DNA of 64,000 nt from Planctomycetota bacterium (GTDB lineage: Bacteria; Planctomycetota; SZUA-567; JAFGGJ01): positions 1 through 64,000 of the forward strand of contig JAFGGJ010000065.1 in the NCBI GenBank assembly GCA_016930595.1, in the 5' to 3' direction. This document shows, piece after piece, positions 4,970-12,060 of this stretch. The translations under genes and the position numbers were made by a program. Positions within the stretch are counted from its first letter, which is position 1. Each line of letters begins with the position of its first letter. The notes below the pieces were generated by a model. That model was not told the DNA's origin and ran no database searches. It saw only the letters and a list, made by a program, of their open reading frames with translations.

Positions 4970-7345
4970 TCACGGGCCGGCGGGAGGCCTGGGGGGCGCG
5001 GGGACGCGTTCGTGCATGTGGGGGCGGGGGACCATTTCGTGCATATGGGGGGGGCGGGGCGCCATTTCGAAGGGGAGGGTGGAGCGGATGGCCGCCTTGA
5101 GGTCTTCGGGGCCGAAATAGAGGATGAAGCGCTTACCGAAGGCCTGCGGGACGGCGACAGTGCGCTGGAGCAACCTGGATACGATGGCTTCGGCGGTAGC
5201 TTCGTTGACCCCCGCGCCCGAAACGGAAGCTTCGGCGATACCGCCTTGAGCGTCGAGCCTGACGGCGATAGTGATACTGTCAACCTTCCACGAGATGAAT
5301 CCCGCGACATCCGGGAGGAGGTCCCTGGTAAAGACATCGTGGATGAGAGCCGGATCGCCGGTTTCGGGGGAGGGTTCCGGAGCGGGAGCAGGCTGCGGAG
5401 CGGCGGCGCGCAGTTCGGCGGCGGAAAAGGCCAGGCGGAAAGACTTGCCGAAGGCATCCGGATTGTCCGTGGTGAAGGACCTGGCGATAGCGGAGAGAGC
5501 GTCGCGGTCGGCGCCGGAAATACCGCCGGACAAGACATAGGCGTCTGAGGCCCTTCCGTCGCGATCGACGACGATGAGGACCTCGATATCCGAGGGTTGG
5601 ACGCGTGCGGCGATACGTGCAAGGAGCAGGCGCGAGAAATCATCGCGAAGCAGGGACTGGTCGCCGAAGGGAGGGCCGGAGTATTCCGGGGCCATTTCGC
5701 AGACGTGGGGAGGGATACAACCGGGTTCGGAGGCAACGATGGCGGCGACGAGGCCCGCTGCGGCGGCGGTCCTGCCGGCCCAACGTGCGAAGCCGCTGCG
5801 GCTGGAGCGGTCTGCAAAGGAGCGCACGTCGGAGAGAATCGCGGAGCCGCGGTCGTAGAGGAGGCGGTCATCTGCGGCGATACGTGCGGAGAAGCCGCGC
5901 AGGAAGGAGGAGCGAGCCGCCGGGCCGCGGAAGCCGGCTTTGACGGCGGCGACGAGTTCGTCAAGGTAGGCGCAGGTGTTCAGGTTGACGGCGGCGATGT
6001 AATCCTTGGTGCGGCGGCGAAGGGACCGGGAAGTGCCGAAGAAGTGGGAGAGGACCTGGTGCTCGTAGTCGACTTCCATGACTTTGTGGTGGACGCCGCG
6101 GTCGCCGTAGTTGCGTTGGCAGAAGGCCGTGTAGACGAGTTCGAAGAGGAGCTGTGCGCCGGGGTCGGCGATGAGGTAATCGTAGCCCCAGTAGTCGCCG
6201 ATGAGGCGGTTTTCGCGGCGGAGCTTAATTTCGAGGGGCGTGCCGGCATAGATTTCGGTACGGCAGAAGTTCATGGGGTTGTGCGGGCGGCGCTTGAGGA
6301 AAGCGACGTTGGCGGCGAAGTCGTCGAGGGTGGAATCGGGGTTGAGCATGAGGAGGTTGAAGCAGCAGTGGATATCGAGGAGGTTGACGACGTCGAGGGC
6401 GCGTTCGTTGTCGGAGAGGGACTGGCCGCGTCCCAGGCGCCGGAGGGATTCGGCCGTGCCGGCTTCGACGCCGAGAAAGACCCTGAAGAGGCCGATGGAC
6501 TTGAGGTAGGCGAAGAGGTCGCGGTCGACTTCGTCGGGGCGCGCCTTGATGGCGAAGGCGATGTCCGTGAGGCCGCGTGAAGCGAAGGCGGAGCCGAGAG
6601 AGCGTGCGCGGTCCCATGCGGCGGCGGGATCGCGCGGGAGGAAGTTGTCGTCGTGGAAGTTGAAGATGCGGGCGCCTTCATTGTAGAGAGCGGCCATTTC
6701 GTCGGCTACGGCGCCGGGGCGGCGCATGCGGAAGCGTTCGCCGCCGCAGAGTCTGTGCCACGCGGAGATGGAACAGAAGGCGCAGGAATGCGTGCAGCCC
6801 CGCGACGAAAGCATGTTGACGATGGGGAGGCCGAGATAGGTGTCGAAGGGACGGCGGTGTACGGCGAAGGGGCGGGAGTCGAGGTCGGCGGGTTTTTCCG
6901 CGGGAGCGTTGGTATGGACGCAGCCGGAAGCATCACGGTAGACGAGGCCTGGGACGGAGGGAAGGTCGTGAAGGGAGCGTGCGAGGCGGCACATGATTTC
7001 TTCGCCTTCGCCGAGTGCGACGGAATCGAAGGCGGGGACGTCGGAGAGGAGGGCCGCCGCGTTGAAGGCCGCGAAGTGACCGCCGGCCGTGAGATGGCCG
7101 GCGTAGCCGAGCTCGCGGGAGCGTGCGGCGAGGCGTGCGAATTCGGCGGCGCGGTAGGTGAAGACCATGGAGAAGCCCGCGAGGTCGGCGGAGGAGGAGG
7201 CGATGCGGCGAGCGGCATCTTCGGTATGGGCGGAATCGTTGAAGACGACAAGGGAGACGTGGTGGCCGGCGGCATCGAGGGCGGCCCAGATGGAGCGGAG
7301 GGCGAGGTTTTCTTCGAGTTCGGCGCCGACGAGGACGATGCGCAC
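4970..7345 (-). CDS. B12-binding radical SAM protein fused to membrane and TonB-C-like domains
   Basis: A 791-residue fusion. Residues 1-130 look like a cobalamin-binding domain, and 180-400 a radical SAM barrel with the cluster motif C184-x3-C188-x2-C191. A hydrophobic helix lies near 522-538. Two similar segments follow (about 585-645 and 687-750), each ending AFGK.F.L.F and resembling TonB C-terminal domains. CIPPHVCEMAP at 543-553 is echoed by PPHMHEMVP and RPHMHERVP at the extreme C terminus. The start is GTG 7345 with AGGAG six bases upstream. No obvious partner gene adjoins, so the reaction is unknown. The radical SAM call is firm; the TonB-like call is inference. Confidence 0.85.
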   Translation of the reverse strand: MRIVLVGAELEENLALRSIWAALDAAGHHVSLVVFNDSAHTEDAARRIASSSADLAGFSMVFTYRAAEFARLAARSRELGYAGHLTAGGHFAAFNAAALLSDVPAFDSVALGEGEEIMCRLARSLHDLPSVPGLVYRDASGCVHTNAPAEKPADLDSRPFAVHRRPFDTYLGLPIVNMLSSRGCTHSCAFCSISAWHRLCGGERFRMRRPGAVADEMAALYNEGARIFNFHDDNFLPRDPAAAWDRARSLGSAFASRGLTDIAFAIKARPDEVDRDLFAYLKSIGLFRVFLGVEAGTAESLRRLGRGQSLSDNERALDVVNLLDIHCCFNLLMLNPDSTLDDFAANVAFLKRRPHNPMNFCRTEIYAGTPLEIKLRRENRLIGDYWGYDYLIADPGAQLLFELVYTAFCQRNYGDRGVHHKVMEVDYEHQVLSHFFGTSRSLRRRTKDYIAAVNLNTCAYLDELVAAVKAGFRGPAARSSFLRGFSARIAADDRLLYDRGSAILSDVRSFADRSSRSGFARWAGRTAAAAGLVAAIVASEPGCIPPHVCEMAPEYSGPPFGDQSLLRDDFSRLLLARIAARVQPSDIEVLIVVDRDGRASDAYVLSGGISGADRDALSAIARSFTTDNPDAFGKSFRLAFSAAELRAAAPQPAPAPEPSPETGDPALIHDVFTRDLLPDVAGFISWKVDSITIAVRLDAQGGIAEASVSGAGVNEATAEAIVSRLLQRTVAVPQAFGKRFILYFGPEDLKAAIRSTLPFEMAPRPPHMHEMVPRPHMHERVPAPPRPPAGP

Positions 7346-7564
7346 GGCAGGCTCCTTTCATGAGGGCGCGTAGCACCCGCATGCTATAACATGCTGGAGG
7401 GGCGTGGGTCACGACGGTATGGAATTGCAGGGGTCCCGTGGGACCGGGTCGAAGGAACTCCAAGTAAAAAGGTTCCGGCCGGCCGGCTCCGACGAGTCTT
7501 GCGGACCCATTCTCACCGGACGGCCATGCGAACCCGCCGAACTGCTCACTCCCAAGCGACTGGA
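7346..7564. other. Intergenic segment between radical SAM gene and array distal end
   Basis: No gene is visible. It holds short palindromes, including GGTCCC...GGGACC near 7431-7445 and GGAAC/GTTCC at 7454-7458 and 7472-7476. On the minus strand the latter has a T-run in its loop and could help end array transcription. The radical SAM promoter should lie near 7370-7390, where gcatgctataacatgc forms a small palindrome. No degenerate CRISPR repeat was seen here. Confidence 0.5.
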
Positions 7565-8261
7565 GTTGTCGTAACCCCTCAATTCACGGTCGCCTGAAGC
7601 TGAATACGTGGAATGTGTGCGGTGTGGGAGGTTGTCGTAACCCCTCAATTCACGGTCGCCTGAAGCGGAATCTTGATTGGCTGTTCATGGTGTGGGGTTG
7701 TCGTAACCCCTCAATTCACGGTCGCCTGAAGCCGGGCGTATCTCCACGACAAGAGCCATGCAGTTGTCGTAACCCCTCAATTCACGGTCGCCTGAAGCGG
7801 GGGAAGCAACCGGCCATTCTCATACCATGTTGTCGTAACCCCTCAATTCACGGTCGCCTGAAGCAGTTGACCAGGACTATCTCCCCGACTGGTAGTTGTC
7901 GTAACCCCTCAATTCACGGTCGCCTGAAGCCCGTACGGCGGCTGCCACTTCCCGCGGCGGTTGTCGTAACCCCTCAATTCACGGTCGCCTGAAGCGGATA
8001 TATGGGTACGTGTTTATCCTCGCACGTTGTCGTAACCTCTCAATTCACGGTCGCCTGAAGCCGCCGACGCCAATCAGACCTACTTCAGGTTCGTTGTCGT
8101 AACCCCTCAATTCACGGTCGCCTGAAGCGTACTTACCCGCGTATATGACCGCGTATGGGGTTGTCGTAACCCCTCAATTCACGGTCGCCTGAAGCGCGAG
8201 GACGGCTGCGAAGTCTTTTCCAGCGGTTGTCGTAACCCCTCAATTCACGGTCGCCTGAAGC
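7565..8261 (-). CRISPR. Type V-G CRISPR array, 11 repeats and 10 spacers
   Basis: Eleven 36-bp repeats start at 7565, 7631, 7697, 7763, 7829, 7895, 7960, 8026, 8093, 8160 and 8226. On the plus strand they begin GTTGTCGTAACCCC and end GGTCGCCTGAAGC. All are identical by eye except the repeat at 8026, which reads CCTCT where the others read CCCCT. Spacers are 29-31 bases, mostly 30. The adjacent tracrRNA candidate and its promoter place transcription on the minus strand, so the processed repeat would begin GCTTCAGGCG and end TTACGACAAC next to the spacer. The leader then lies at 8262-8348 and the newest spacer is probably 8196-8225. Spacer targets cannot be searched here. Confidence 0.98.
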
Positions 8262-8348
8262 CCACCGGCTGCAACCTGTTGCGTCCTAATGGCTTAGGCC
8301 AAAAACCACAACAAAAAAATGGCCTAAACACCGCTTTTCACAGAGCAA
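8262..8348 (-). promoter_or_regulatory. Putative CRISPR leader
   Basis: An AT-rich stretch between the tracrRNA candidate and the array, unlike the GC-rich surroundings. It contains an 8-bp inverted repeat (TTAGGCCA at 8294-8301, TGGCCTAA at 8320-8327) whose loop is T-rich on the minus strand. This could be a leader signal, a weak terminator or processing structure after the tracrRNA, or both. A weak minus-strand promoter-like pair (TTGTTG, CATTAG) lies within it. Confidence 0.5.
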
Positions 8349-8349
8349 A

Positions 8350-8451
8350 ACCGTGAATTAATGGGTTAGTTACCTCCGGCTCTGGGTTCCATCCTTCGGC
8401 GTCGAAACACCTCGGAAGTATGCCAGAGCTAACGACTCACGACAAGGTAAC
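8350..8451 (-). ncRNA. tracrRNA candidate for Cas12g
   Basis: Read on the minus strand, 8368-8350 is TAACCCATTAATTCACGGT. It can pair with bases 11-29 of the minus-strand repeat with one A-G mismatch and one G-U pair. TTGTCG at 8445-8440 can pair with repeat bases 30-35, so together the two segments cover repeat 11-35. Between them is a long hairpin: GTTA-GCTCTGG (8433-8423) faces CCAGAGC and TAAC (8385-8379, 8372-8369). GTTACC at 8451-8446 can alternatively pair with GGTAAC at 8374-8369. The predicted 5' end at about 8451 follows a consensus promoter; the 3' end is uncertain. Known Cas12g requires a tracrRNA, which agrees. Confidence 0.85.
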
Positions 8452-8457
8452 GAATCT

Positions 8458-8485
8458 ATTATACCCGAATATCGCGAAGTGTCAA
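8458..8485 (-). promoter_or_regulatory. Consensus sigma70-type promoter for tracrRNA/array
   Basis: On the minus strand a perfect TTGACA (8485-8480) and a perfect TATAAT (8463-8458) are separated by 16 bases. The -35 box starts five bases after the cas12g stop codon. Initiation is expected near 8451, exactly where the antirepeat-containing RNA begins. This is the best promoter match I found in the window and it fixes array polarity. Confidence 0.88.
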
Positions 8486-8489
8486 AGAG

Positions 8490-10784
8490 TCATTGGTCTG
8501 GAAGAACAATATCACCCCAGAAAACCCGGCCAAGCACCTTCGCCGCATTTTCATCGCAGTCCATTCGATTGTTGCATCCATCATATTCGCAAATGAAGCT
8601 GCCATTCCCCTTATTCGTGCGCCACAGGCGATGGTTCCCCTGTTTTCTGCCGCACTCAGAACAGGTCTGTGAAGAATAGAAGTAAGGTGTCGTCACAACA
8701 CGCATTCCACGCTCCACGGCCTTTTCCGTTACTTTGTGGCGCACACGCCCGTGCGCGTAAAAAGCGAGACGGCGTTTCTTGTCACTGTCATACTTGGCAA
8801 CTTTATCATATCCCGGCAACGGGAAGCCTCTCTGGCTTTCAAAAACGATAAGGTCGACATCGTTTTCTTCCGCTTTCTTGATTACCCGTGAAGCAACCAG
8901 CCGCGCCCAGTCGCGTATCATCCAACGTATATGCAGTGAGAAGCGCCGCATGTCATTCGGGCCGAGTTGCGGTTGGTCCCGGGTGTCCGTCCCTGAAGCA
9001 GGTTTCTTACCGGGGCTGCGTTTTTGGCTTATCTGCGACGCCTCAGCGGCCCAAGCCTCAAGATGTCTGCCTATATGGTCCTTTGTAAGGCCACTATACG
9101 GTTTTTTGTTACTGCCGGAACCGGATTTTTCATCTGGGAAAATGAGTTTGTCCAGTTTCAGCGTTTTCAGTTTTTCGCTCTTCTGAAATTGTCTGCCGTT
9201 AAACAGGGCAATCGCATTACCGACCTGGCCTGTATCGACGCACAGGATCTTGAGTTCCTTTTCCGGATCGCCGCTGAAGGATTCCAGCAACAGCTTGCGG
9301 GCCTCACGCAAGAAGGCATTGTCCTGACGCCATCGAGGATATTTACGGCTGCGCAGGTCAGCTATGTCATCCTGGCTGACGGCAAACCGTGATTGTTTAT
9401 GCTCGACTTTGAACCGGAATCCGACGCGGGCCCTTGAGCCGATGAAATGAATCTGAACGCTCGATATTTCAGCATTACCAGGCTGGATGTCATATTCCGG
9501 CGGCCAGGGATGAAAGCCGAACGGGATGAACTCGTCTGCCGCCATCGTATCCATGCGGAGCCTGAGAATGGAGTGTTTATAATCCACACCATAGTAATCC
9601 TTGCCAAATATTTTGGGGATAGAGAGGCGGCGCTTCGAGGGATAGGTGAAGGAAGGTTTTTTAGGCCCGGAGAGGAAATCCTTGCGCCACTCCCGGTAGA
9701 GCGAATCTAGTTCTTGCAGTCGCGGTTCACTTGAAAGCCGCGCCTTGTACAGCTTGCACTTTTCGGTGTGCTCATTGTACGGACAAGGTTCCTTATCATC
9801 ATTCTTTTGGGGGCAGTGCGGGAGGTCGCCATTGCCTTTTCTGGCAACAGTTCCTTCGGTAATACCCAGTGCCTGTAGATAATCAGCCCACCAAGTCTTT
9901 GAAAATTTGTGAGCTTGGGGTTCTTTTTTCAGAAGCAGTTCCATGAGCTTTTTTCGGTTGTTGTGCAAGTGGGGATTTTTCTGGCGGATAGCAAGGTACG
10001 TGCGAACATTCTCCTCGAAATACTTATTAGCTTCGCTGTTGGCCCGGAATTTGAGGTATTTCACACAAAGCTGAGCGTGGTTTTTTATGCGAAAACGTTC
10101 TCCATTATACAGGCAACCGGTATTGCCTTTCTGCAATTGTTCCCAGGTGCAAACCCGCGGATTTTTCCTGTCAACGCCAAGGTCTTTGAAAATACGGTTA
10201 AACTTGCTGATGGCATCTTCGGTCAGTTGCGGATGTTTTTTCTCCCATGCTTCCTTTTCTTTCAGCCATTCTTCCCTGCGCCTCTTCCAGTTTTCAAACG
10301 GCATGAGATAACGAGCAACTATAAGGTCTGCAGAAGCTTTGAGGAGCACCACAATATGCCTGTCATCATAACCGGCCACTCTCTTGAACAGATTGGTTGC
10401 AGTCTGTGTGGGAGGAATGCGCTTTACATGGTCTGTAGAAGAAACAACCTCGTCGGGCACATTACTTAACGCTTTTTCTGCATTTCCCAATCCTGCCGCG
10501 GATTTGAAAGCAGCCAGGCGAGTACGATCGACGAGTTTTTCGTCGTCGATGAATTGTTCCGGCTCGAGGAAGAAGCTCCAGAAAGGCTCCGTCTCTTTCC
10601 CTCTTTTGCCGTCCGGACGGAAACTCATAACCCACTGGCAAATTTCAGACACGTCCAGATTGAACTGTTCAAAATGCCTGCGGAGCTTGCGGACGTTTGA
10701 TTTGAACTCCAGCCTGCTTTGCCCATCAAGCCGACGGAGTCCTCTTACAAGCGTTCTTTCTTCGCGATATCTTGTTGCGGACAC
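8490..10784 (-). CDS. cas12g: Cas12g, type V-G RNA-guided effector nuclease
   Basis: 764 residues from GTG 10784, or 776 if read from GTG 10820. I recognise Cas12g from memory of Cas12g1: RYREERTLVR near the start, QFN.DVS..CQW...FRP, EISSV..HF.G.R.R.GFRF, IRDWARL, VTEKAVERGMRVVT and VLGRVFWG at the end. Numbering from GTG 10820, the RuvC triad is D529 (LCVDTG), E661 (LIVFESQRGF) and D756 (CDENAA), with a zinc ribbon C720, C723, C744 and C749. Characterised Cas12g is a tracrRNA-dependent RNA-targeting RNase with collateral RNA and ssDNA cutting. The 10784 start is preferred because GGGAAGG precedes it and a TATAAT lies only three bases before 10820. Base composition is less GC-rich and less skewed than that of its neighbours. 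Confidence 0.96.
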   Translation of the reverse strand: MSATRYREERTLVRGLRRLDGQSRLEFKSNVRKLRRHFEQFNLDVSEICQWVMSFRPDGKRGKETEPFWSFFLEPEQFIDDEKLVDRTRLAAFKSAAGLGNAEKALSNVPDEVVSSTDHVKRIPPTQTATNLFKRVAGYDDRHIVVLLKASADLIVARYLMPFENWKRRREEWLKEKEAWEKKHPQLTEDAISKFNRIFKDLGVDRKNPRVCTWEQLQKGNTGCLYNGERFRIKNHAQLCVKYLKFRANSEANKYFEENVRTYLAIRQKNPHLHNNRKKLMELLLKKEPQAHKFSKTWWADYLQALGITEGTVARKGNGDLPHCPQKNDDKEPCPYNEHTEKCKLYKARLSSEPRLQELDSLYREWRKDFLSGPKKPSFTYPSKRRLSIPKIFGKDYYGVDYKHSILRLRMDTMAADEFIPFGFHPWPPEYDIQPGNAEISSVQIHFIGSRARVGFRFKVEHKQSRFAVSQDDIADLRSRKYPRWRQDNAFLREARKLLLESFSGDPEKELKILCVDTGQVGNAIALFNGRQFQKSEKLKTLKLDKLIFPDEKSGSGSNKKPYSGLTKDHIGRHLEAWAAEASQISQKRSPGKKPASGTDTRDQPQLGPNDMRRFSLHIRWMIRDWARLVASRVIKKAEENDVDLIVFESQRGFPLPGYDKVAKYDSDKKRRLAFYAHGRVRHKVTEKAVERGMRVVTTPYFYSSQTCSECGRKQGNHRLWRTNKGNGSFICEYDGCNNRMDCDENAAKVLGRVFWGDIVLPDQ

Positions 10785-10822
10785 AGCAACCCTTCCCTGT
10801 TTGCGGCCCCTACTGCCCACAC

Positions 10823-10853
10823 ATTATACATGCGGCAACGGTATGCGTCACAA
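10823..10853 (-). promoter_or_regulatory. Promoter of cas12g
   Basis: A perfect TATAAT (10828-10823, minus strand) lies downstream of a TTGTGA element (10853-10848) at a long 19-base spacing. Initiation would be near 10815, inside the longest reading frame. This supports translation from GTG 10784 and an effector transcript separate from the capA operon upstream. Confidence 0.6.
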
Positions 10854-10872
10854 GGCGGGAGCGTCGGAGGCG

Positions 10873-12060
10873 TTACTTTTCGTAGCGGCTGGAGGGGCGG
10901 TTGAATTCGAGGAAGTCCTTGTGGGAGGAGGCTTCGGAGCGGAAGCGTTCTTCGGCCATGCGGACGAGTTCGGAGACCCACGAGCGGTTTTCGCGTACTC
11001 CGGCAAGAACCCAGGCCCAGCGATCCATGAAGTCTTCTGCGGACATGCCTTCAACGCGCTTCAGGTAGATGCGCAGCATGTCCATGCAGCGAGCGCGCCA
11101 GTTGGCGAGGACGACGGCGTCGTCGGCGAGAGCGGCGTCGAGGTGTTCCAGGTAAGCAAGCGCTTCCGGGAGGCGGTCTTCGGGATACGGCACGGGGCGT
11201 TCGGGCGGGGACGATATTTCGAAGGGGAGGCGCTGGAAATCTTCGGCGCCGCGTGCGGAAAGGCGGACTCTGAGCACGAACGAATGGGCGGTGTGCGGGC
11301 CGTTGTCTTTCATGTACGACGAAGTGTGGGAGTTGAAGACGCAGTTGCCGAGACTGTAGGCGATGAGGGAGCGTCCGCAGCGTTCGACGCCCTGCGGCAC
11401 GTGGGGATGGGTGTGAAGGACGAGGTCGGCGCCCGCCGCTGCGAGCCTGCGGGAGAGGTCGCGCCGCCAGACGGCGGGCGTTTCCATGAATTCCAGGTCG
11501 GAATGGAGACTGAGGACGAGTACGTCGACGTCGGGGCGGAGTGCGGCCAAGTCTTCGAAGACGTCGCTTTCCACGAGATAAGCGGGACCTGCGCCGAGGT
11601 GGCCGTAGGTGTAGTTGCAGTCTTCCTGGTAGCCGAGGAAACCGACGGCGAGGCCGTTCTTTTCGACGACGAGAGGGGTGCGGGCTTCCTGCGGGGACAG
11701 GCCCGCGCCGAAAGAGCGGATGCCGTGCGAAGCGAGGACTTGCCGCGTGTTAAGGAGCCCGGCGGTGCCGCAGTCGAGGACGTGGTTGGCGGCCAGGTTC
11801 ATGACGTCGAAGGCGGCGTCGGCGAGAGCGGCGGCGTGCCGGCCCGGAGAGGCAAGGGCCTTGGGATTGAGCCTGTCTTCCGGGAAACCGTCCGGGATGA
11901 AGACGGATTCCATGTTGCCGAAGCGGATATCGGCGTCGTCGAGCCAGGGGCGGATCTTTTCGAAGGGATAGGAGGGGCCGTGTTCGTCCACGCCGTCGCC
12001 GGAAGTGCCGCGGAACGAGACGTCGCCCACCGCCGCGAGAAGGATGGAATCGTCTGGCAT
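10873..12060 (-). CDS. CapA-family metallophosphatase (poly-gamma-glutamate capsule-type)
   Basis: A 395-residue protein of the CapA/PgsA calcineurin-like family. Motifs in order: AVGDVSFRG (about 9-17), IRFGNMESV (about 45-53), NLAANHVLDCG (about 88-98), LVLHTHPHVPQG (about 200-211) and IAYSLGNCVFNSH (about 220-232), the expected metal-binding set. There is no clear N-terminal membrane anchor, unlike classical Bacillus CapA, so it may be cytoplasmic. It is the last gene of a minus-strand operon with an acyltransferase, a glycosyltransferase and a serpin-like exported protein, suggesting an envelope-polymer role. Whether it handles polyglutamate is unproven. Confidence 0.88.
   Translation of the reverse strand: MPDDSILLAAVGDVSFRGTSGDGVDEHGPSYPFEKIRPWLDDADIRFGNMESVFIPDGFPEDRLNPKALASPGRHAAALADAAFDVMNLAANHVLDCGTAGLLNTRQVLASHGIRSFGAGLSPQEARTPLVVEKNGLAVGFLGYQEDCNYTYGHLGAGPAYLVESDVFEDLAALRPDVDVLVLSLHSDLEFMETPAVWRRDLSRRLAAAGADLVLHTHPHVPQGVERCGRSLIAYSLGNCVFNSHTSSYMKDNGPHTAHSFVLRVRLSARGAEDFQRLPFEISSPPERPVPYPEDRLPEALAYLEHLDAALADDAVVLANWRARCMDMLRIYLKRVEGMSAEDFMDRWAWVLAGVRENRSWVSELVRMAEERFRSEASSHKDFLEFNRPSSRYEK

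Follow-up and report, generated by a model that had tools for sequence, protein, structure and literature searches.

A type V-G (Cas12g) CRISPR-Cas locus with a tracrRNA candidate and putative phage-derived spacers in a draft genome of Planctomycetota

Cas12g is rare and belongs to the small group of type V effectors that act on RNA. Two other Cas12g proteins have been tested, and both cleave RNA (PMC10511118, PMC10707612). The tested proteins possess no PAM-interacting domain, target RNA in a PAM-free manner, cleave it with the RuvC site and display collateral RNase and ssDNase activities, and one of them, Cas12g1, is unable to process its own pre-crRNA unaided (PMC10511118, PMC10707612). The zinc fingers of Cas12g (HCCC, CCHC and CCCC) are required for activity (PMC10511118). 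Structures of Cas12g1 are available (PDB 6XMF, 6XMG, 8I16 and 8I3Q), and its gene was found here in the Terriglobia MAG HOT.MAX.039 (genome G392; JAIMAG010000003, locus L001), with 100% identity over 748 aa; the locus occupies positions 9935-13257 of L001 and includes a 13-repeat array. The second tested protein, the 768-aa Cas12g from the Karmadon hot spring, was examined in vitro and assigned to Terriglobia; its closest homologues come from candidate divisions and from Planctomycetota and Terriglobia, and the origins of the spacers of this locus were reported as unknown (PMC10707612).

The locus described here (positions 7565-10853) lies in a stretch of 64,000 nucleotides analyzed as a whole and referred to below as the window. 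It encodes a new ortholog of Cas12g rather than a new kind of effector, in a family that is rare but already characterized, and judging by its components, namely the effector, the tracrRNA candidate and the array, it very probably represents an intact type V-G CRISPR-Cas system. The locus resembles that of Cas12g1 in the size and domains of the effector, in the RuvC and zinc ligands, in the arrangement of promoter, tracrRNA and array directly downstream of the effector on the same strand, in the order of the tracrRNA elements, in the 36-nt repeats and spacers of about 30 nt, and in belonging to a genome without detected Cas1 or Cas2. It differs in protein sequence (about 47% identity), in the unrelated repeat sequence, in a longer spacing within the C-terminal ribbon (C-x4-C), and in host group and genomic place. 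By its published description, the Karmadon locus is also similar, with a tracrRNA region and an array of 10 repeats (36-nt repeats, 30-nt spacers) after the effector. The closest relative found, at 51-52% identity, is the Cas12g of genome G059 (L002/L007), from the same phylum and a different class, which shares the C-x4-C ribbon and the locus layout; its contig stops after three repeats. The window locus offers a further candidate for a compact RNA-targeting nuclease with a well-defined tracrRNA, the protein being less than 50% identical to the Cas12g of known structure.

A second Cas12g from the class to which the Cas12g1 host belongs (L033, G1006:C55) is 66% identical to Cas12g1 and has, like it, the same MoxR-type ATPase gene as a neighbor; its contig breaks off within cas12g, and Cas2 is encoded elsewhere in this genome (L036). 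The phylum of the window also holds a compact 693-aa Cas12b-type effector (536 bits; L009, G040:C8:253000-271000, positions 6849-12000), the C-terminal half of which resembles Cas12g (50 bits). An array of 5 repeats, each about 37 nt long with GGACAC at the end, accompanies it, and downstream lies a Cas4-Cas1 fusion followed by a 96-aa frame, possibly Cas2.

The effector and its active site

The open frame at 8490-10820 on the minus strand comprises 776 codons from GTG 10820 or 764 codons from GTG 10784. The shorter form is favored and the longer one appears less likely, because the -10 TATAAT of the promoter-like site upstream ends at 10823 and abuts GTG 10820, so that this promoter-like pair would set the transcription start near or inside that codon, and because a ribosome site stands just ahead of GTG 10784 (Table 1).

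The Cas12g profiles of PADLOC match the protein with 942 and 890 bits over residues 15-775, that is, nearly the full length, against 43 bits for the next family and 38 bits for the Cas12b profiles. The solved Cas12g (PDB 6XMF) is matched with 671 bits (E 2.5e-200) over residues 16-774 in the 776-aa numbering, N-terminal domains included, at about 47-48% identity. By these sequence comparisons the 764-aa protein is a Cas12g, as the sequence-only reading had proposed. Pfam and NCBIfam detect only a generic TnpB/Cas12f-type C-terminal domain and report no Cas12g match for the 8490-10820 protein, which is named by PADLOC and PDB only; because of this, routine annotation may call such cas12g genes TnpB-like.

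The RuvC triad D517/E649/D744 of the 764-aa form (D529/E661/D756 in the 776-aa numbering) aligns with D513/E655/D745 of Cas12g1. All 12 zinc ligands are conserved (C212, C224, H339, C343; H236, C240, C324, C334; C708, C711, C732, C737), the last four constituting the CxxC...C(x4)C ribbon. An intact triad and this ribbon had been claimed from the sequence alone, and the alignment to Cas12g1 bears out both the residue numbers and the spacing. Since all catalytic residues are kept at about 47% overall identity, the active site appears to have been under selection.

Guide RNA features and the array

Table 1. Features of the Cas12g locus (all on the minus strand), listed from the effector towards the array
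Feature	Position	Strand	Details
Promoter-like site for cas12g	10823..10851	(-)	GTGACG-17-TATAAT, 10/12 consensus matches
cas12g	8490..10784	(-)	764 aa, GTG start, GGAAGG ribosome site 10796-10791
Sigma-70 consensus promoter for tracrRNA, probably also array	8458..8485	(-)	TTGACA-16-TATAAT, 12/12 matches
tracrRNA core (candidate)	8350..8451	(-)	comparison with L001 and L002
tracrRNA closing stem	8451-8445/8375-8369	(-)	7 bp, GTTACCT/AGGTAAC
Anti-repeat 2	8445-8440	(-)	TTGTCG, 6 bp, inside closing stem
tracrRNA inner stem	8429-8423/8385-8379	(-)	GCTCTGG/CCAGAGC
Anti-repeat 1	8368-8350	(-)	directly after closing stem
Inverted repeat between tracrRNA and array	8294..8327	(-)	TTAGGCCA/TGGCCTAA, T-rich loop
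CRISPR array	7565..8261	(-)	11 repeats GCTTCAGGCGACCGTGAATTGAGGGGTTACGACAAC, 10 spacers of 29-31 nt
Spacer 1 (leader end)	8196..8225	(-)	25/30 to phage C5-cytosine methyltransferase genes
Spacer 6	7865..7894	(-)	24/30 to gut phage gene

The order cas12g, promoter, tracrRNA and array is maintained on one strand, and the intergenic stretch between cas12g and the array is 228 nt long. The consensus promoter starts 4 bases past the cas12g stop codon, and similar promoter elements are seen at the equivalent place in L001 and L002. Anti-repeat 1 pairs with the repeat at 18 of 19 positions, with one G-U. Of 2000 shuffled versions of the intergenic region, 10 contained an ungapped match of equal quality, and the anti-repeat score of a control region was 10 versus 17 for the intergenic region; the duplex-energy test was weaker than the shuffle test. 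In L001 a 12-bp anti-repeat comes immediately after the closing stem GATGCTT/AAGCATC, and in L002 a 9-bp anti-repeat comes after the closing stem GTCGTTTC/GAAACGAC. For anti-repeat 2, L001 offers a weak match of 4 bp and L002 an ambiguous one. The same order of elements, built from wholly different sequences in the three loci, provides good comparative support for the predicted tracrRNA. Minimum free energy folding of the window tracrRNA alone does not show the closing stem; because anti-repeat 2 makes this layout a pseudoknot, it is argued here by comparison and not by folding energy. The coordinates given in the sequence-only reading proved right, and its same-strand promoter, tracrRNA candidate and 11-repeat array were upheld.

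No standard terminator was found between the tracrRNA and the array, where the inverted repeat may possibly serve as a leader or a weak terminator. Ten of the eleven 36-nt repeats are identical, the distal one included, and the repeat at 8026 carries one change. Comparison of the whole array with phages, plasmids and 41 genomes revealed no self-target, second array or strong match.

Spacer origins and mode of action

No exact protospacer was found for any window spacer. The 25/30 matches of spacer 1 lie on a phage scaffold in GenBank and on two IMG/VR contigs, and one more distant gene also matches; in 2.3 billion bases of phage DNA, this spacer alone has an E-value of 4e-3. The in-frame peptide AGKDFAAVL corresponds to KGKDFAAVL/I in the phages (motif GKDFAAV), and the crRNA runs in the sense direction of the methyltransferase mRNA and therefore could not bind it. 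For spacer 6 the nucleotide E-value is weak (8), and the assignment depends on the in-frame peptide, VDQDYLPDW versus VDQDYLPEW of the gut phage, the crRNA being antisense to the gene. In the Cas12g1 array, the complement of spacer 3 encodes DERHLWPHW, a peptide of the Burkholderia phage BcepC6B methyltransferase and of Erythrobacter phage ZS04, and the crRNA is antisense to the BcepC6B gene. IMG/VR was scanned with exact 17-18-nt cores of spacers 1, 2, 3, 7, 8 and 9 and with a degenerate peptide pattern for spacer 6: spacers 2 and 7 gave no match, and the single core matches of spacers 3, 8 and 9 were dropped, as they did not extend beyond the core. Spacers 4, 5 and 10, compared with phage and plasmid records only, gave no convincing match.

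A phage protein containing QDYLPDWY (L022) was rejected as the source of spacer 6, since just 21 of 30 bases agree. Window spacer 6 and Cas12g1 spacer 10 have TACCAGTCGGG in common, PDWY being a possible reading of the complement in both cases, and CATKCCACGYATTCA is common to spacer 10 of the window and spacer 1 of Cas12g1. This sharing was set aside as evidence (p about 0.03-0.04 by shuffling).

The matched phage genes are distant relatives of the true spacer sources, and dsDNA phages are tentatively suggested as the targets of Cas12g. The orientations suggest spacer uptake without strict strand choice, three spacers being too few to establish a bias. A plausible reading, held with somewhat less than even confidence, is that Cas12g arrays contain pieces of dsDNA-phage genes, including those of DNA methyltransferases, in both orientations, inserted by a strand-blind, non-local Cas1-Cas2, and that only the antisense pieces can act on viral mRNA. 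If true, this would be the first target assignment for type V-G, so far as the literature consulted shows. With the putative protospacers, it would become possible to test whether Cas12g naturally defends against DNA phages through attack on their transcripts.

Across the whole bin, which is 82% complete so that absence is not final, neither Cas1 nor Cas2 was detected, and none was found in G059 or in the Cas12g1 genome; the earlier description of the locus as complete thus holds for the effector, tracrRNA and array and not for adaptation. RNase III is encoded in all four Cas12g genomes examined, the window bin included. In the proposed pathway, Cas12g would be expressed from its own promoter, and the consensus promoter just 3' of cas12g would drive the tracrRNA and, most likely, the array. 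The tracrRNA would bind the 3' part of each repeat via the two anti-repeats, and, given that Cas12g1 is unable to mature its pre-crRNA itself, a host nuclease, RNase III or another, would probably trim the transcripts. By analogy with the tested relatives, from which the RNA targeting, PAM independence, collateral activity and processing route of the window protein are inferred, guide-loaded Cas12g would bind complementary RNA without a PAM, cut it with the RuvC site and then act as a collateral RNase and ssDNase. Destruction of phage transcripts is the likely cellular outcome, and collateral cleavage may perhaps lead to dormancy. Because no Cas1-Cas2 was seen in the bin, new spacers would have to come from an earlier host or through a pair whose genes lie elsewhere.

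The missing adaptation genes also bear on a different, rather doubtful reading, in which the V-G locus has become a static relic, with its effector and guides still expressed but its array, frozen for want of an adaptation module, protecting against past phages only. The lack of Cas1/Cas2 in all three genomes (G000, which contains the window, G059 and G392) and the imperfect matches of known phage genes to the spacers are consistent with a relic, but the bin is incomplete, the repeats have remained identical up to the distal end of the array with a single exception, and the preserved catalytic residues argue for selection on activity. Most Cas12 subtypes cut DNA, and an effector of this usual kind, in a branch that lost RNA targeting or never had it, would agree with spacer 1 lying on the wrong strand for mRNA targeting. 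Such an activity is very improbable for a protein with full-length similarity to Cas12g and every Cas12g zinc ligand kept, given the antisense orientation of two spacers, window spacer 6 and spacer 3 of Cas12g1, relative to their matched genes, and given that the tested Cas12g proteins, without a PAM-interacting domain, target RNA (PMC10511118, PMC10707612). That the protein is some other compact Cas12 (Cas12b-like, Cas12f or TnpB-like), similar to Cas12g in the C-terminal half only, as the generic domain seen by Pfam and NCBIfam might suggest, is refuted by the profile scores: those libraries gave no Cas12g match, the dedicated Cas12g models lead all others by about 900 bits over residues 15-775, and the 6XMF alignment spans the N-terminal domains too.

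Genomic setting and distribution

The contig is 69 kb long and carries ordinary metabolic genes on both sides of the locus, together with a tRNA-Pro; radical SAM, capsule-synthesis, nucleoside-transporter and epimerase-type genes are among them. The chromosomal setting proposed earlier is upheld by these neighbors, whereas its value as host context for a mainly metagenomic family was overstated, the window itself being derived from a draft genome that resembles a metagenome bin. Nor is such context new: Cas12g1 already has it, because L001, with this protein at 100% identity, lies on a contig of 211 kb from a Terriglobia MAG. Homologues from Planctomycetota have been reported (PMC10707612), and the phylum is already represented in a published tree.

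In the phylum of the window, which comprises many families and genomes of up to 9 Mb, Cas12g is encoded in 2 of 392 genomes, namely the window genome and G059 from another class, and no further one was found among 28 genomes of the class of the window. For the Cas12g1 host, the corresponding counts are 1 of 396 genomes of its phylum and 2 of 299 of its class, G1006 being the second in the class. No Cas12g was found on plasmids or viral contigs. The cas12g gene has a GC content of 50% and a GC3 of 0.55, compared with 62% GC for the window and a GC3 of about 0.80-0.86 for the neighboring genes. Because of the patchy distribution and the A+T-richer composition, horizontal arrival of the locus is suggested.

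FtsZ was not detectable in the bin or in 25 relatives, which, taken with the many families and the genome sizes of the phylum, suggests Planctomycetota. At 4970-7345 on the minus strand, the window encodes a radical SAM protein of the B12-binding type, extended at the C-terminus by a stretch with tandem repeats (27-30 bp units at 4991-5069).
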